Shown here piece by piece: positions 55,976 through 64,000 of a stretch of 64,000 bases of DNA (its first letter is position 1; each line of letters opens with the position of its first letter). Source of the stretch: Paracoccaceae bacterium (GTDB taxonomy: Bacteria > Pseudomonadota > Alphaproteobacteria > Rhodobacterales > Rhodobacteraceae); assembly GCA_028874915.1 (NCBI GenBank), contig JAPPHA010000110.1, forward strand, positions 1 through 64,000. The letters run 5' to 3'. Both the position numbers and the translations under genes were made by a program. Under the pieces are notes generated by a model. The model was given only the letters and a program-made list of their open reading frames with translations. It was not told where the DNA came from and did no database searches.

Positions 55976-58900
55976 TCAAGAGGCGGCAAGATCTTCTGCG
56001 CGTCGCAGGTCGACGGAAACCAACTGACTCACACCCTGTTCCGCCATGGTAACGCCGAACAGGCGGTCCATGCGGGCCATCGTAATGGCGTGGTGGGTGA
56101 TGATCACGAAGCGCGTGTCCGTTCGCCGGTTCATTTCATCCAGGAGTTTGCAAAAACGGGTGACATTGGCGTCGTCGAGCGGCGCATCAACCTCGTCGAG
56201 GACGCAAATCGGTGACGGATTGACCAGGAATACGGCAAAAACAAGCGCGATTGCCGTCAGAGTCTGTTCACCACCGGAGAGGAGCGAAAGCGTCGACAGC
56301 TTTTTTCCGGGCGGCTGGCAGAAGACATCCAGTTCGGCGCCGAGCGGATCCTCGCCTTCCACCATCTCGAGCCGTGCCTGGCCCCCGCCAAACAGTTTCT
56401 CGAACAAGACGCCGAAGTTGCTGTTGACCTCGGCGAAGGCGCGGCGAAGCCGGTCGCGGCCATCGCGATTGAGACTTGTGATGGCGGACCGAAGCTTGGC
56501 GACAGCACCTTCCAGGTCGTCCCGTTCGCCGGCAAGGGAATCCCGTTCACCTGCCAGCCTCAGGGCATCTTCTTCTGCTCTGAGGTTGACCGCACCCAGA
56601 GCATCGCGCTGACGTCGGAAGCGGATGATGTCCGCTTCCAGGCTGGAGACCTCGGGCAGGGAATCGTCCGCTGCGGCGAGGTCGATCGTGAGTTCGGCGG
56701 CAAGATCGGCAGGCTCGGTTCCGGCGTCGTCACGGATCCGGGCGGCAACGGCCTCAACCTGTTCAGCCGCAGCCTCCACGACGGCTTCGGCGCGCGCCAG
56801 GTCTGCGCGAGCATCGGCCGCAAGCCGTTCCTCCGTCCGCTCCCGGTCTTCGGCTTTCCGAGTCGCCGTCTCGGCAAGGGCCTGGGCATCGGCGGTCGCC
56901 GATTGCCGGGTCTCGGCCTCGCGGATCCGTTCGGCAAGCTGCTCCCGCCGGCTGGCGATTGTTTCCGGACGGGTCTTCGCCTCGGCGAACCGGTTCTCGG
57001 CATCTTGCCGACGGTTTCGCAGATCCTCGATGCGCCGGTCCGCCGCCCTCTGTCGCCGAAGCCACCCGTCTCGTTCCCTGGCGACTTCGTCGATCCGCTG
57101 GCGACGTGTCTCGGCCTCGCGGGTGAGCGCTTCATGCCGCGACCGACGGGAGATCATGTCCTGTCGCGCCAACGAAACCTGTTCCCGGGCCGCGTCGACG
57201 TCCGCCTGTTTCGCGTCAGGATCGCCCGACTCCCGGAGCGCAGCGTCGGCTTCCGTGAGGTCGGATTCGGCGGCGGCGAGTTCTTCCCCAAGCCGTTCTT
57301 CGGCCAGCGCCAGCGCTTCCAGCTTTCCGGCCAGCATGGCCCTGTCCGCCTCGGCGTTCGCCAAACTGCGTGATGCCTCGATCATTTCGAGATCGGCATC
57401 CTTTCGCCGGTTTCGCGCCGCCGCCTCTTCGGTGCCCGCGGCCGACAGTGTCTCATTGGCCGCCGCCAGCACCCCCGCTGCGTCGTTCATCCGGACCTTG
57501 GCTTCGGCAAGCGAGTTCCGGAGGTCGTCGAGGCGGTTGATCTGGCGGAAATGTTCCGCCGACCGGGACGGCGCATCATGGGCCGATGTACGGTACCCGT
57601 CCCATCGCCACATGTCGCCTCCGGGGCTGACCAGTCGCTGTCCGGGGCGGAGAACGCGCTGCAACCGGTCTCCCGTGTCGGTATCGACCAGCCCGACCTG
57701 GCGAATGCGCCGGGTCAGGACAGGCGGGGCCTCCACATGGGACTCGAGCGTTCGGGCTCCGGCGGGCAGGGGTTCCGGATCGGGATCATCGGGCAGGCTC
57801 ACCCAACCGGACAGCGGTCCGGTTTCACGCCCAGAATCGGGGTCGGCCATGGGACGCGACAACTCGTCACCGAACGCGGCGCCGAGCGCGGCCTCATGCC
57901 CGGGGTCTACGCGAACGCTGTCGATGATCTGACCATCCTCGCCTTTCGATGACTCGAGGACGCGTTCGAGTGCGGCGACCTCCGCGGTGAGTGCGGAGAC
58001 GGCGCCGTCGAATTCCGAATGCGCGATCCAGGCATCGCTCGCGGCCGCCTGGGCATCGGCCCGCCGGACCGAAGCCTCTGCCAAATGCGACTCGGAATCG
58101 GCAACCGACTCTCGCGCCGCCGTGTCACGGATGCGAGCTGTTGCGATCGTCCCGTCGGATTCGTCGAGTTTGGACCGGAGTTCCACCAAGCGATCCCCGG
58201 TCTCCGCAACCCGGTCGGCTCGCCGTTCGAAGACGGTTCGCGCTTCCGCATGACGGCGATCCGCAGAATGGCGCCTGGCGATGATTTCGGCCAATTCTCC
58301 GGCAAGGGATTCATGGGCCGATTCCAGCGATTGGAGCCTCTCGGCAGCAGTCCGAACTGCCGTTCGGGCGGTCTCTTCCCGTTCCGGATGATCGGCGATC
58401 GCCACTTCCAGGGCTTCGCGTTCCTTGTCGAGCCGGTCCAGGCTGGTCTTTGCATCGCTTCCGAGCGCGGTCTCCCGATCAAGATCCTGGCCCAACTGGC
58501 GAATCTGGTTCTCAAGACTGCGGATGGACTGACGGGCGCGTTCCTCCTCATCGGCGAGGCCGGCGTAATCGAGGCGGAACCGGTCGAGGACGGCCGTGGC
58601 GCCCGCGCTCTCGGAGAGGGCAGATTTCAGGCGTTCCTGCGCGGCCTCCCGTTCCTTCGCGGCCGCCAGGGCCCGGGCCTGGGCGTCGGCCACGGACGCG
58701 GTTGCTGCGGCTATCGCGGTTTGGGCGGCCAGATGCGCGTTGTCGGCGTCCCGCCAGCGCCGAAGAAGCAACAGCCCCTCCGACCGGCGGAGCCGGGCAC
58801 CGATCTCCCGGTAGCGGGCCGCCTGACGGGCCTGACGGTCAAGGGACGCGAGCTGTCCCTCGAGCTGGGCGATGATTTCGGCGACCTTCTCCAGATTGGC

Positions 58901-59464
58901 CTCGGCACCGCCCAGTTTCAGTTCGGCTTCATGCCGCCGCTGATGCAGACCGGCGATCCCGGCAGCCTCCTCGAGGAGTTGGCGTCGCGATGCCGGTCGG
59001 GCATTGACAAGGTCCGCGATCTGCCCCTGGCGCACAAGCGCCGGAGAATGGGCGCCCGTGGACGCGTCAGCGAAAAGCCGGCGGACATCGCGGGCGCGGA
59101 TTTCCTTTCCGTTGGCGCGAAAGGCCGACCCAATGTCGCGCGTGATTCGCCGCGCGACGTCAACGGAACGGACCCCGTCGAAGCCATCGAGCGACAACCC
59201 GGCCGCCGCCTGGATCGAGAGCACGACTTCGGCAAAGTTCCGGGCCGGCCGGCTGTTGGTCCCATTGAAGATCACGTCTTCCATTCCGCCGCCGCGCATC
59301 GATGTTGGCCGGGTCTCGCCCATGACCCAGCGCAGGGCTTCAAGGAGATTCGACTTTCCGCAGCCGTTTGGACCGACGAGCCCGGTCAGGCCGTCGGCGA
59401 TGATCAGTTCGGTGGGATCGACGAAGCTCTTGAACCCGTTGAGACGGAGTTTGCTGAACTGCAA
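55976..59464 (-). CDS. smc: Chromosome segregation protein SMC
   Basis: SMC is the ATPase arm of the condensin-like complex that organises and segregates chromosomes with ScpA and ScpB. The 1162-residue protein shows Walker A GLVGPNGCGKSNLLEALRWVMGE near residue 30, long coiled coils rich in Ala, Glu and Arg, a hinge near the middle (DPGHEAALGAAFGDEL, RVLRPGQRLVSPGGDMWRWDG), a second coiled coil, then the signature LSLLSGGEQTLTAIALVFA and Walker B SPICVLDEVDAPLDDANVTRF. The start is a TTG giving MQFSKLRLNGFKSFVD, the family's normal N-terminus; the frame is open far upstream but without similarity. ScpA/B are not in the window. Confidence 0.96.
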   Translation of the reverse strand: MQFSKLRLNGFKSFVDPTELIIADGLTGLVGPNGCGKSNLLEALRWVMGETRPTSMRGGGMEDVIFNGTNSRPARNFAEVVLSIQAAAGLSLDGFDGVRSVDVARRITRDIGSAFRANGKEIRARDVRRLFADASTGAHSPALVRQGQIADLVNARPASRRQLLEEAAGIAGLHQRRHEAELKLGGAEANLEKVAEIIAQLEGQLASLDRQARQAARYREIGARLRRSEGLLLLRRWRDADNAHLAAQTAIAAATASVADAQARALAAAKEREAAQERLKSALSESAGATAVLDRFRLDYAGLADEEERARQSIRSLENQIRQLGQDLDRETALGSDAKTSLDRLDKEREALEVAIADHPEREETARTAVRTAAERLQSLESAHESLAGELAEIIARRHSADRRHAEARTVFERRADRVAETGDRLVELRSKLDESDGTIATARIRDTAARESVADSESHLAEASVRRADAQAAASDAWIAHSEFDGAVSALTAEVAALERVLESSKGEDGQIIDSVRVDPGHEAALGAAFGDELSRPMADPDSGRETGPLSGWVSLPDDPDPEPLPAGARTLESHVEAPPVLTRRIRQVGLVDTDTGDRLQRVLRPGQRLVSPGGDMWRWDGYRTSAHDAPSRSAEHFRQINRLDDLRNSLAEAKVRMNDAAGVLAAANETLSAAGTEEAAARNRRKDADLEMIEASRSLANAEADRAMLAGKLEALALAEERLGEELAAAESDLTEADAALRESGDPDAKQADVDAAREQVSLARQDMISRRSRHEALTREAETRRQRIDEVARERDGWLRRQRAADRRIEDLRNRRQDAENRFAEAKTRPETIASRREQLAERIREAETRQSATADAQALAETATRKAEDRERTEERLAADARADLARAEAVVEAAAEQVEAVAARIRDDAGTEPADLAAELTIDLAAADDSLPEVSSLEADIIRFRRQRDALGAVNLRAEEDALRLAGERDSLAGERDDLEGAVAKLRSAITSLNRDGRDRLRRAFAEVNSNFGVLFEKLFGGGQARLEMVEGEDPLGAELDVFCQPPGKKLSTLSLLSGGEQTLTAIALVFAVFLVNPSPICVLDEVDAPLDDANVTRFCKLLDEMNRRTDTRFVIITHHAITMARMDRLFGVTMAEQGVSQLVSVDLRRAEDLAAS

Positions 59465-59684
59465 GGAATGGCTCGTTGTGACGGCTCGTGGCCCGGTTTC
59501 GGTCCTCGCGGGGAATTGGCGGTCAAATCCGGGGAAAGTCAACCGGGATGAACTGGAAGGTTGGCATACGGGCACCGTCCCGGGACCCATCGGGACGGGA
59601 TGCATCCAAAGTTGCCGGCAGACCTTGCAGGAGGCAGAGAGGCGGGCAAATTCGCTTGACCCTTGCGGAACTCGGGTCCACAAG

Positions 59685-59895
59685 AACCGGGCAAGGTTCC
59701 CCGCGAGAATGCCAAGCATTCGGGGATGAAACGGGAATGCGGTAGGGGTTGACCGAAATCCGAGGAACCCCCGGCCGCAGCCGCCCCCGCGACTGTTGCG
59801 GTGAGTGCCCGTCCGTAACCACTGGCGACAGCCGGGAAGGGGGACGACGCGCGAAGACCCGCGAGCCAGGAGACCGGCCCTGCGCCAGTGCTGCG
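59685..59895 (+). promoter_or_regulatory. Cobalamin (B12) riboswitch
   Basis: The conserved core is clear on the plus strand: GGAATGCGGT then CCGAAATCC, GCCGCCCCCGCGACTGT, GTGAGTGCC, CCACTGG, CCGGGAAGG and, most diagnostic, CGAAGACCCGCGAGCCAGGAGACCGGCC. These are the invariant parts of the cobalamin aptamer. It lies 140 bases before hupE. Right after the aptamer a perfect CAGTGC-TGCG-GCACTG hairpin (59886-59901) could be the expression platform; no T-run follows, so control of translation is more likely than termination. Exact ends are approximate. Confidence 0.93.
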
Positions 59896-60032
59896 GCACT
59901 GACCAACGACAACGGACGGGGTGTTCCGTGATGGTGAAGGCACTGCCGCCGGCCGACGTTTCGGCGGTGGTCATTCCCTTGCCGGCGGTTCCTCCCGACG
60001 CCTGAACTGACGACGCCCCTGGAGGAGACGCC
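59896..60032 (+). other. Leader between riboswitch and hupE, with a possible small ORF
   Basis: A GTG-started frame of 29 codons (59921-60010, VFRDGEGTAAGRRF...) and an overlapping ATG-started frame of 24 codons (59931-60005) lie here. Both are unassigned. One might be a leader peptide, or the stretch may only be riboswitch output sequence. Confidence 0.25.
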
Positions 60033-60695
60033 ATGAACAAGCTGTTCGCCGAATTGCCGGTCATTGCTGCCGCGACGTTTTTTGTGGCCGGCCCGGCCTT
60101 CGCACACCATCCGCTGGCCGGTGCGCCCATGGAGACATTCGTCCATGGGGTTCTGTCGGGTATCGGTCATCCGGTGATCGGGTTCGACCATCTGTTTTTT
60201 GTTGCTTTGGTGGGTCTCGCGGCAGCATTGGCCGGCAGGTTGGTCCTGCTGCCTGTGGGCTACATTGCCGCCATGCTGGCGGGAACGCTGCTCAGCACGG
60301 CCGGCCTGGCGCTGCCGATGGTCGAGGCGGCCATCGCGTTGTCTTTGCTCGCCCTCGGTGGCGTTCTGGTTCGCGGCCGCGGGCTCGAAACCATTCCGGC
60401 GTTGCTGGTGTTCGTCGGTTTCGGCCTGTTCCATGGATCCGCCTTCGGGGCCAGCGTGGCCGGCCAGGAATCGGCGCTCGGGGCGCCGGTCCTCATCGGT
60501 TATCTGCTTGGCCTCGGCGGGATCCAGTATCTGATCAGCCTCGGTTGCGGTTGGGGTGCCGGAAAGGCGTGGGACCTGCGCCATCCGGATCGGTCGGAAC
60601 CCCGGATTGCCGGGGCCGCCGTCGCCGGTGTCGGCCTGTTCCTGGTCCTCGAGATTGCGGAGGTTGCAACGTTTGCGGCACTTGGCGTGGGCTGA
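60033..60695 (+). CDS. hupE: HupE/UreJ family metal permease, probable cobalt importer
   Basis: A 220-residue membrane protein of the HupE/UreJ family, which imports Ni2+ or Co2+. A signal-like N-terminus (IAAATFFVAGPAFA) precedes AHHPLAGAPMETFVHGVLSGIGHPVIGFDHLFFVALVGLAAAL, carrying the conserved His and Asp residues (HP...G.DH.FF) of the metal path, then FVGFGLFHGSAFG and five or six further helices. TGGAGGAGA precedes the ATG. Being first behind a cobalamin riboswitch, followed by cobW and cobN, indicates cobalt as substrate: low B12 would switch it on. Confidence 0.9.
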   Translation: MNKLFAELPVIAAATFFVAGPAFAHHPLAGAPMETFVHGVLSGIGHPVIGFDHLFFVALVGLAAALAGRLVLLPVGYIAAMLAGTLLSTAGLALPMVEAAIALSLLALGGVLVRGRGLETIPALLVFVGFGLFHGSAFGASVAGQESALGAPVLIGYLLGLGGIQYLISLGCGWGAGKAWDLRHPDRSEPRIAGAAVAGVGLFLVLEIAEVATFAALGVG

Positions 60696-60791
60696 GGCCA
60701 TTACGGAAAGTTGGCCATCCGATACGCGGAATCGCGCCGAGACAGACGCAGGCCCGGCTGGTTCCGGTCGGTGGATTCGGGAGATTCGCAG

Positions 60792-61874
60792 ATGACGGCA
60801 CGGATTCCCGTGACGATCCTGACGGGCTTTCTCGGTTCGGGAAAGACGACTCTGGTCCGCCACATTCTGGCCCATGCCGAAGGCCGGCGGATTGCACTCG
60901 TCATCAACGAATTCGGCGACCTCGGGGTGGATGCGGATCTCATCGACGGCTGCTACGATGCCGCCTGCGACGCCGGGGACATAGTCGAGCTTACCAACGG
61001 CTGCATCTGCTGCACGGTTTCGGAGGATTTCGTCCCGGCCATGGAGTCGATCCTCGCCCGGACGCCGCCGCCCGATCACATTGTCGTCGAGACCTCGGGG
61101 CTCGCACTGCCTCAACCCCTGATTCGGGCGTTTACCTGGCCCGGGCTGAAGACTCGGTTGACGGTCGACGGGGTCGTCGTGCTGGTCGATGGCAGAGCAG
61201 TCGCCGATGGCCGTTTTGCCCACGACCCCGGGGCAGTCGACCGGCAACGGCGTGCCGACGAGAGTCTCGATCATGAATCCCCCCTCCTCGAATTGTTCGA
61301 GGACCAGATGGTCTCGGCGGACATCATCGTCCTGAACAAGACCGACCTTCTCGAACCGCCGACGGTGGCTGCGCTTGCCAGGCAAATGGAACGGGATTCG
61401 AGAAACGGCACTCGGGTGGTGACGGCAAGCCGGGCCAGATTGCCCGTGGAGATCGTGCTCGGGCTCCGGGCAGAGGCGGAGTCGGACACCGAATCCCGGC
61501 ATGAACGGCACCACGAACATCATGACGATGACGGAGACGGAACGGCAACTCATGGCGAAGAGGATCATGGGGAATTCGACAGTTTTGTCGTCGAGTTGGG
61601 TGCCGTCGATGCGCCGAATGTTCTTGTCGACCGGATCGCCGGTGCGGTTTCGAGGCATCCCATTCTACGGGTGAAAGGATTTGCTGCCGTCACGGGGCGG
61701 CCGATGCGGCTCGCGGTCCAGGCGGCGGGACCGAGGGTTGACCACTACTTTGACCGCCCGTTCCTGCCCGATGAGGCACGGATCTCGCGACTGGTCGTCA
61801 TCGGAATGGGCGGGCTTGATCGGACGGCCATCGAAGCCGAATTGACGGGATCCTCTTCCGTCGCGTCATGCTGA
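60792..61874 (+). CDS. cobW: CobW-type GTPase metallochaperone
   Basis: A 360-residue COG0523 GTPase that delivers cobalt for cobalamin synthesis. P-loop VTILTGFLGSGKTTLVRHILAH, the metal-binding CxCC motif in LTNGCICCTVSEDF, VVETSGLALPQPLIRAF, DIIVLNKTDLLE with NKxD, and a histidine/aspartate-rich loop (RHERHHEHHDDDGD, then HGEEDHGE) near residues 238-262 for metal binding are all seen, and the C-terminal CobW_C domain. A weak GGGAG precedes the chosen ATG. It is in the riboswitch-controlled run and overlaps the GNAT gene by seven bases. Confidence 0.94.
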   Translation: MTARIPVTILTGFLGSGKTTLVRHILAHAEGRRIALVINEFGDLGVDADLIDGCYDAACDAGDIVELTNGCICCTVSEDFVPAMESILARTPPPDHIVVETSGLALPQPLIRAFTWPGLKTRLTVDGVVVLVDGRAVADGRFAHDPGAVDRQRRADESLDHESPLLELFEDQMVSADIIVLNKTDLLEPPTVAALARQMERDSRNGTRVVTASRARLPVEIVLGLRAEAESDTESRHERHHEHHDDDGDGTATHGEEDHGEFDSFVVELGAVDAPNVLVDRIAGAVSRHPILRVKGFAAVTGRPMRLAVQAAGPRVDHYFDRPFLPDEARISRLVVIGMGGLDRTAIEAELTGSSSVASC

Positions 61875-62344
61875 CCATCGCTGCGGAGTCGACCCTGACC
61901 GCCGAGGCCAGGGACCTGATTGCCGGGAGCGAGGCGGTGCTGCGATCCGTCTACCCGCCGGAGGCCTGTTTTTCATTCAGTCCGGAAGAACTGATGAAAG
62001 CCGGTTCCACGTTTCTCGTCGCCCGTATGGCGGAAGCGGGTGACGCGAGATCGGCCGGAACGGCTGTCGGCTGCGCGGCCCTGGTCAGTTGTGACGGCTA
62101 CGGCGAGATCAAGCGGCTTTTCGTCGAGCCGGCATGGCGCGGCCACGGAATCGGCCGGGCCCTCATGGCGCGCATTGAGTCAGAGGCAGCAGGGCAGGGC
62201 CTGCCGATGGTCCGGCTGGAGACCGGCGCCCGGCTCGCCGCCGCCGTCCGACTCTACGAGACCCTGGGTTACCAGGAGTGCGGGCGGTTCGGCGATTACA
62301 CGGGCCATCCGTCCAGCCTGTTCATGGAGAAACGCCTCGCGTGA
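61868..62344 (+). CDS. GNAT family N-acetyltransferase
   Basis: A 158-residue acetyl-CoA-dependent transferase. The acetyl-CoA motif A region is EIKRLFVEPAWRGHGIGRALMARIESEAAG (the RGHGIG loop binds the pyrophosphate), followed by LPMVRLETGARLAAAVRLYETLGYQECGRFGDY and the usual C-terminal SLFMEKRL. Start overlaps the end of cobW, and its stop abuts the cobN ATG (TGATG), so it is translationally linked to cobalt genes. The substrate is unknown; members next to cob genes are common, but a role in B12 synthesis is not established. Confidence 0.88.
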   Translation: MLTIAAESTLTAEARDLIAGSEAVLRSVYPPEACFSFSPEELMKAGSTFLVARMAEAGDARSAGTAVGCAALVSCDGYGEIKRLFVEPAWRGHGIGRALMARIESEAAGQGLPMVRLETGARLAAAVRLYETLGYQECGRFGDYTGHPSSLFMEKRLA

Positions 62345-64000
62345 TGCATCTGCTGCAGGCCAGGCCGGGACGGATCGACGACGATCGTGAGGCCGTTGAT
62401 CTTGGCCAGACGCCGGCTGACCTGCTGTTCCTGTCGGCGGCCGATACCGAACTTGCTGCCCTTGCCGCAGCAAGGGACGAACTCGGGGCCGCTGCCGGCA
62501 GCCTTCGCCTCGCCAGTCTCGCCCATCTCCGGCACCCGTTTTCCATCGACCGGCACATTTCGGATTGCGCACTGGGATGCCGGCTGGTGATCGCCCGCAT
62601 TCTCGGTGGTCGCGACTACTGGCCCTACGGAGCCGAGCAATACGCCGCACGGCTCGGCGAGGCGGGCATCCCCTTCGCCGCCCTGCCCGGCGACGACAAG
62701 CCGGATGACGGTCTTCGGCGGATCTCGACGATCGGTGATGACGATTGGGAAAACCTCTGGGCCTACCTGGTAGAGGGCGGGTCCGAGAATACCCGCAACT
62801 TCCTGCTTTATGCCCGCTCGCTGCTGGCAAACGGCGAACGGCCGCCACTGGCCCGGCCGTTACTCCGGGCCGGAGTCTACTGGCCGGGTTCCGGCGTTAC
62901 CGATCTCGACCGACTCCGGGCGAACTGGATCGACGGGGCGCCTGTCGTGCCCCTGATCTTTTACCGGGCTCTCGTGCAGGGTGCCGGGCTGCATCCGATC
63001 AACCGCCTGGTCCGGGCCCTCGTCCGGCGACGCCTCAATCCGTTGCCGCTATTCGTGGTCTCCCTTCGGGACGAGGTTTCGGCCGCAACGCTCGACAGCG
63101 TCTTCCGGCGAGCCCCGCCGTCGGTGATCCTGAACGGCACTGCGTTTGCGGCCGGAAGTCCCGACCCGGAGGCTGCGGCCGGGATGACCAACCCTCTGAT
63201 CCGGGAATCGGCCGCCATGGCGCCGGTGCTCCAGCTGGTTTTCTGCGGTGCCTCCGAAGAGGCCTGGCGAGAATCCGCGGCGGGCCTGGGTCCCCGGGAC
63301 ATCGCCATGCATGTCGCCTTGCCGGAGGTCGATGGACGGGTTTTGACCCGCGCCGTGTCCTTCAAGGACGAAGCCTACTTCGACACGGCGACCGAGTGTC
63401 CGATTGCCACGTACCGGGCGCGGGGCGACCGCGTTGCCTTCGTTGCCGAACTGGCGGAGGCCTGGACTCGCCTCCGTCGGATAGCGGCAGCGGACCGGCG
63501 GATCGGCATTGTCGTTGCCAACTATCCGAATCGGGATGGACGGATCGCCAATGGCGTTGGCCTTGATACCCCGGCGTCGGCCGATCACGTGATCCGGCTC
63601 CTGAAGGCAGAGGGGTACCGGGTCGACGAGGAGCCCCGGAGCGGTAGCGCCCTGATGGAATGCCTGCTGGCCGGTCCCACCAATGCCGCGGAATCGGAGG
63701 AGTCCCGACCCGGAGGCGTCCATTTGCCGCTCGCGGCATATCTCAAGCGCTACGCGGATCTGCCCTGGGAGGTGCGCGACCGCATTGAATCCCGTTGGGG
63801 ACAGCCGGACGAAGACCCGTCCTTCGTCCAGGGCGGCTTTCGCCTGCCGATTCACCTGTTCGGAAACCTCGCGGTGGGAATTCAGCCCGCACGGGGCTAC
63901 AACATCGACCCGAAGGAAACCTACCACTCGCCCGACCTGCCGCCCCCGCACAATTACCTGGCCTTCTATTTTTGGCTCCGGCAGGTCTTCGACTGTCACG
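62344..64000 (+). CDS. cobN: Cobaltochelatase subunit CobN (3' end outside the window)
   Basis: CobN is the large subunit of the ATP-dependent aerobic cobaltochelatase that inserts cobalt into hydrogenobyrinic acid a,c-diamide together with CobS and CobT. The first 552 codons are present of a protein usually about 1200-1400 residues long. Family blocks are SLAHLRHPFSIDRHISDCALGCRLVIARILGGRDYW, FAALPGDDKPDD, RAGVYWPGSG, PLFVVSLRD, IGIVVANYPNRDGRIANGVGLDTP and HLFGNLAVGIQPARGYNIDPKETYHSPDLPPPHNYLAFYFWLR, where the aerobic H-chelatase signature ends the window. No interruption is seen. It belongs to the riboswitch-controlled transcript. cobS and cobT are not visible. Confidence 0.95.
   Translation, partial: MHLLQARPGRIDDDREAVDLGQTPADLLFLSAADTELAALAAARDELGAAAGSLRLASLAHLRHPFSIDRHISDCALGCRLVIARILGGRDYWPYGAEQYAARLGEAGIPFAALPGDDKPDDGLRRISTIGDDDWENLWAYLVEGGSENTRNFLLYARSLLANGERPPLARPLLRAGVYWPGSGVTDLDRLRANWIDGAPVVPLIFYRALVQGAGLHPINRLVRALVRRRLNPLPLFVVSLRDEVSAATLDSVFRRAPPSVILNGTAFAAGSPDPEAAAGMTNPLIRESAAMAPVLQLVFCGASEEAWRESAAGLGPRDIAMHVALPEVDGRVLTRAVSFKDEAYFDTATECPIATYRARGDRVAFVAELAEAWTRLRRIAAADRRIGIVVANYPNRDGRIANGVGLDTPASADHVIRLLKAEGYRVDEEPRSGSALMECLLAGPTNAAESEESRPGGVHLPLAAYLKRYADLPWEVRDRIESRWGQPDEDPSFVQGGFRLPIHLFGNLAVGIQPARGYNIDPKETYHSPDLPPPHNYLAFYFWLRQVFDCH

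Follow-up and report, generated by a model that had tools for sequence, protein, structure and literature searches.

What is an acetyltransferase gene doing between the cobalt chaperone and cobalt chelatase genes of a cobalamin (B12) operon? The question is posed by the 3' end of a 64,000-nucleotide stretch of Paracoccaceae bacterium DNA (contig JAPPHA010000110.1, positions 1 to 64,000; hereafter the window), where a cobalamin riboswitch is followed by hupE, cobW, a gene for a GNAT acetyltransferase, and cobN. The original prediction had proposed this gene order, with overlaps of 7 bases between cobW and the GNAT gene and of 1 base between the GNAT gene and cobN; coordinates and family profile matches agree with it, and both overlaps are exact. 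We favour, as the likely answer, a B12-controlled cobalt operon built around a GNAT that has long resided beside smc and whose role is not confined to cobalt insertion; the sequence, synteny and distribution on which this draws are direct observations.

In such a scheme, low B12 would turn the operon on, HupE would import Co(II), CobW with GTP would pass the cobalt on, CobN together with CobS and CobT would insert it into the ring, and CobO would adenosylate. The GNAT would be an acetyl-CoA (coenzyme A) N-acyltransferase of the YsnE/3LOD type that has long occupied the position next to smc in the Rhodobacteraceae. In many genera cobalt genes lie to either side of it; in others they are missing and the gene stands alone. 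Operon membership is routinely used as evidence of function, and here a gene that overlaps both its neighbours persists in relatives at the same place without them.

Recurrence of the GNAT gene in cobalt operons

Two samples of genomes were compared. The first comprised 101 relatives, 54 of them with a CobW over the family cut-off, and 53 neighbourhoods were compared, the window being the 54th. A one-chain CobN (at least 61% identity, or a split match whose larger piece reaches that value) is encoded in 18 of the 53, and in 15 of these 18 the GNAT gene lies between cobW and cobN. No GNAT was found in the 35 operons with other CobN types, and one further neighbourhood shows no CobN in view. The larger sample of 394 family genomes yielded 119 whose CobN is of a similar one-chain type (identity at least 54%), a figure that counts best CobN matches and omits second pieces of the same CobN, a broken copy on contig C78 and divergent CobN matches (E-value 5e-137 and weaker). 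Among the matches listed, at least 84 of the 119 have the GNAT gene directly 5' of cobN; inspection of the remainder added 11, giving 95 of 119 Rhodobacteraceae genomes, with the gene absent from 21 and three not assessable (genomes G374, G200 and G347). A chance neighbour peculiar to the window genome is rejected on this recurrence. The original prediction had called the GNAT the unexplained member of the operon: its embedding stands, and it proves to be a recurrent feature of this operon type.

A scan of genome contigs gave 80 GNAT loci, of which 42 adjoin cobW and/or cobN, spread over Thalassovita, Amylibacter, Marinosulfonomonas, Loktanella, Roseovarius, Rubellimicrobium, Yoonia and other Rhodobacteraceae or relatives. 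In the linked cases cobW is always 5' and cobN always 3' of the GNAT gene, while the spacing to cobN ranges from 3 bases to more than 1 kb. At one locus (L121:5243-5752, genome G036) a 169-residue open reading frame in the GNAT place is GNAT-like by eye and has no Pfam match; it is perhaps a decayed copy.

Standalone copies beside smc

The divergent neighbour of the window operon is smc (55979..59461, minus strand; TIGR02168, 772 bits against a cut-off of 567), which encodes the chromosome segregation protein and serves as a synteny anchor. Within the family, the GNAT gene adjoins divergent smc, without cobW or cobN, in 27 of 28 standalone loci, the only one with no smc in view being L129. Start-to-start distances between smc and the GNAT gene are 147-347 bases in 26 of the 27 and 832 bases in the other, L185, where hupE lies between; L185 has smc, hupE and the GNAT gene, and lacks cobW, cobN and the riboswitch. 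Divergent smc also adjoins many operon loci, at a greater distance, with riboswitch, transporter and cobW intervening. Further downstream, a small lipoprotein-like gene and a TsoY-family gene are common to several operon and standalone loci (compare, for example, L143 with L141).

The riboswitch is present in all 11 related operons scanned. A riboswitch before the standalone GNAT genes was rejected, none being found in two scans of 11 and 12 loci, with one place counted twice, as L160 and as L128. At an E-value of 0.1, standalone copies at 27 loci showed no relic of cobW or cobN beside them, the only cobalt gene there being the hupE of L185; the standalone GNATs of genomes G048 and G053 lay outside this wide-flank comparison.

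Among the matches listed, 64 genomes have a GNAT without a one-chain CobN. Their CobN scores over the cut-off in 37 (divergent and matched in pieces) and does not in 27, ten of which show only weaker matches that are probably magnesium chelatase. CobT, found in 61 of the 64, is uninformative as a marker of B12 synthesis and was rejected in favour of CobN. The GNAT is thus found beyond the company of cobalt-insertion genes, both at the standalone loci and in these 27 genomes. That the place of the gene implies a role in B12 synthesis is not supported by the loci and genomes compared, its counterpart standing alone beside smc at 27 of 28 loci.

These counts bear most directly on the proposal that the GNAT is a dedicated factor of the B12 pathway, acetylating CobW, CobN or a pathway metabolite, so that its position between chaperone and chelatase reflects its role. 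Such a factor would not be expected to be missing from 21 of the 119 genomes and from all 35 operons with other CobN types, nor to stand without cobW and cobN at 28 family loci and in 27 genomes with no CobN over the cut-off. We consider it unlikely, even though the position is held in 95 genomes, the gene overlaps both cobW and cobN, five operons away from smc retain it, and CobT is still encoded in 61 of the 64 genomes. In a related and likewise improbable version, the YsnE-type GNAT would be an enzyme of B12 economy, expressed under B12 shortage, that acetylates CobW, CobN or an amine of the corrinoid pathway and so tunes cobalt delivery, while standalone smc-side copies would serve the use of B12 where a genome produces or acquires the vitamin by a different way. 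Because the same chromosomal place keeps the GNAT where its cobalt neighbours are gone, caution is advisable before calling it a B12 gene. Within the operon the gene is conserved yet dispensable, it also persists independently outside it, and it is probably not a dedicated B12 factor. Operon copies recur in scores of genera, and comparing them with standalone copies makes the real role testable.

Loss or gain of the flanking cobalt genes

The two arrangements could be related in either direction. Loss of the flanking cobalt genes around the GNAT is probably the correct one, and it is the simpler, since gain of cobW on the 5' side and cobN on the 3' side would require either a matched pair of insertions on every occasion or movement of the entire block. 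L185, with only hupE and the GNAT gene left, looks like an intermediate of loss. We hold only tentatively the converse possibility, in which the pair of smc and the GNAT gene came first and cobalt genes arrived around it, perhaps repeatedly or as a recombining block. To it belong the observations that the pair without cobalt genes is common in the family and that change between the two states appears frequent: a tree of 110 GNAT copies, 57 of them classed as cobW- or cobN-linked, contains 15 changes between linked and standalone labels against a mean of 36.9 for shuffled labels, although this quick tree uses 148 columns and leaves 49 of its 107 inner branches open. In the same tree the window copy falls within a supported set of 45 copies and a second set holds 43, with loci L167 and L170 each carrying one of each side by side. 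The invariable order of cobW and cobN about the GNAT gene, together with the remnant-like L185, weighs on the other side.

Some results sit less comfortably with a long-resident GNAT that saw its cobalt neighbours depart. The association between GNAT presence and smc adjacency in operons is modest (21 of 26 against 6 of 14; Fisher p 0.03, uncorrected for kinship), this comparison leaving out G267, G268, G247 and G018, where the flank or cobW is missing, and G250, G015 and G060, with CobN under 60%. Five of the 26 operons that have the GNAT gene are located elsewhere than beside smc, and therefore the GNAT also travels with the operon. Outside the family, none of 22 smc loci has a GNAT within about 1.5 kb, and the direction of change is not polarised by them. 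Finally, a cobalt chelatase of a different kind, a class that was not searched for, may serve the genomes that lack CobN. These points count against our preferred account, which we nevertheless regard as the likely one.

In one genome of another family (L083 and L306; genome G092, contig C11) smc is again near the operon but in a different layout, a few kilobases beyond the 3' end of cobW-cobN-cobO and encoded on the other strand.

Identity of the GNAT protein

The GNAT gene (61868..62344, plus strand) encodes a protein of 158 residues matching PF00583 with an E-value of 1.3e-15. Its closest solved relatives by sequence are PDB entry 3lod (E-value 3.5e-19) and YsnE (1yx0; 9.8e-12). The first of these, a putative acyl-CoA N-acyltransferase from Klebsiella, is nearest by fold as well: a structure model with a predicted local distance difference test (pLDDT) score of 94.2 matches it with a Z-score of 21.7 and 1.5 Å across 142 residues. 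Neither PDB title gives a substrate, and no connection of 3LOD or YsnE with B12 or smc turned up. The acetyl-CoA motif of GNATs is R/Q-x-x-G-x-G/A, and the window protein carries RGHGIG at residues 91-96; profile, fold and motif thus all place it in the superfamily. A name from a curated family was rejected, no cut-off among the NCBIfam acetyltransferases (RimI, ArsN2, PRK03624 and others) being reached: 14 families matched, all far under their cut-offs, with a top score of 40.1 against 124. Enzymatic activity is a prediction; the substrate is most likely a small amine or a protein, and the role one that extends beyond cobalt insertion.

Residues R91, G92 and G94 of the CoA motif, along with other residues, are invariant in all 15 operon copies. 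This conservation argues against a neutral passenger, retained only because its deletion would upset translation from cobW into cobN, as do the persistence of standalone copies free of any operon constraint and the variable spacing to cobN. The idea draws on the overlaps in the window and on the variable presence of other accessory genes between cobN and cobO; we find it very doubtful. The window gene does lack a clear ribosome site of its own and, with its overlaps, is probably translated along with the operon.

The riboswitch and its leader

A full B12 aptamer had been predicted upstream of hupE, and a search with the cobalamin model recovers a complete one at 59677..59896 on the plus strand (RF00174; E-value 3.5e-23). 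Its score of 97.8 bits compares with a gathering score of 31.5, all model positions from 1 to 189 are covered, and it is the sole cobalamin riboswitch match in the 5.0-Mb assembly. B12 would thus be expected to repress the operon.

How the aptamer might act is less apparent. A possible hairpin at 59990..60027 (plus strand) would pair TTCCTCC with GGAGGA, the hupE ribosome-binding stretch, and is a candidate expression platform. A stable platform was rejected, however, the predicted fold being no more stable than shuffled sequences (z -0.51). A transcription terminator was likewise discarded, a search 3' of the aptamer having found no terminator-like site. Between aptamer and hupE lies an open reading frame of 24 codons (59931-60005, plus strand), which spans the stretch able to pair with the hupE ribosome site.

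HupE and an exchangeable transporter slot

The first gene of the operon, hupE (60033..60695, plus strand), encodes a permease of the HupE/UreJ family (PF04955, E-value 3e-29; 102.2 bits against a gathering score of 23), presumably for cobalt uptake. Its HPVIGFDH fits HPXXGXDH, which PMC7689651 gives as the HupE/UreJ motif. In relatives, the slot between riboswitch and cobW is occupied by HupE at some loci (L112, L119, L125 and L127, for example) and at others by CbtB-CbtA (L104), CbtA (also L106) or a CbiM protein (L105, L124). Because these unrelated cobalt transporters swap in the same place, HupE is read as a cobalt permease, as had been proposed from the riboswitch; the predicted cobalt transport is well supported by context, including cobW and cobN downstream. 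Proteins of the HupE/UreJ family are also able to carry nickel, according to PMC7689651 and PMC2667541. That the window protein does so instead of carrying cobalt is most improbable given the B12 riboswitch before it, the cobalt genes after it and the cobalt transporter families that hold its slot elsewhere. The locus therefore displays, under one riboswitch, an exchangeable cobalt-transporter slot (HupE, CbtBA, CbiM).

CobW, CobN and the B12 genes of the genome

The gap between hupE and cobW is 96 bases. The cobW gene (60792..61874, plus strand), for the cobalt metallochaperone GTPase, is taken to start at the ATG at 60792, the longest open reading frame beginning at a TTG at 60711. Its product scores 462.3 bits against the TIGR02475 equivalog cut-off of 332.1 and has the GxxGxGKT, CxCC and NKxD motifs (GFLGSGKT at residue 12, CICC at 71, NKTD at 182). 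Cys54 and Cys59 are spaced like Cys56/Cys61, the extra Cys pair named for CobW proteins in PMC7895991. A loop rich in His, Asp and Glu (HHEHHDDD, residues 240-247; 61509-61565, plus strand) is perhaps a metal store.

The cobN gene, for the large subunit of cobaltochelatase, runs from 62344 to the window end at 64000 and on to contig base 66051 (plus strand; PF02514, E-value 5.8e-98). The full product on the contig is a one-chain CobN of 1235 residues, scoring 1573.2 bits against the TIGR02257 equivalog cut-off of 822.05. Outside the window, cobO/btuR comes after cobN. Elsewhere the genome encodes CobS and CobT side by side and has a ring-synthesis cluster with CobH, CobL, CobI, a CbiG-CobJ frame and CobM. 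Since cobS, cobT and corrin-ring genes are thus also present, the operon is the module of B12 synthesis that supplies cobalt and carries out its late insertion. The prediction of an operon for cobalt uptake and insertion behind a B12 riboswitch is confirmed, and the operon is of a known kind.

Operons of that kind, for cobalt transport and cobalamin synthesis with HupE-, CbtAB- or CbiM-type transporters, share riboswitch, transporter, cobW and cobN with the window, and PMC7689651 and PMC2667541 describe B12 riboswitches regulating cobalt transporters, one HupE included. The window differs in the YsnE-type GNAT between cobW and cobN, an arrangement of which no record was found in the open-access literature searched, subscription papers being outside its scope. 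An acetyltransferase that is reported with cobW, cobN and a cobalamin riboswitch is a homoserine O-acetyltransferase, unrelated to the GNAT. With late cobalt insertion by CobW and CobNST in Rhodobacter capsulatus (PMC7895991) the genome shares the CobW motifs, extra Cys pair included, as well as CobN, CobS and CobT; the window CobN is of the one-chain type, whereas the divergent CobN of many family members was matched in two pieces.

The ring cluster (L224:3118-8909; genome G000, contig C105) holds, beside CobH, CobL, CobI and CobM, the CbiG-CobJ frame and a CbiX/CfbA-type chelatase-like open reading frame below the cut-off, and so combines traits of the two B12 routes, in a genome that encodes CobNST. 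On contig C78 of the same genome (L005:6587-7882) lies another CobN-like stretch, which is incomplete and broken across frames; it is 55-61% identical to the window CobN from residue 174 to about 594, and none of the searched B12 genes adjoins it.

Other genes recur 3' of cobN in relatives. A GFA-family gene, 5' of cobO where this is visible, is found at L104, L113, L125, L148, L152, L157, L164 and L166 (PF04828 confirmed in L157), and a small phosphatase-like gene at L151, L157, L164, L166 and L170, the L157 copy matching no Pfam or NCBIfam model. Distant GNAT genes of other kinds also occur there, at L174:10395-10835 and L208:10525-11034 (both PF00583) and at L172, L190 and L212, so that this operon has acquired GNATs at more than one place.

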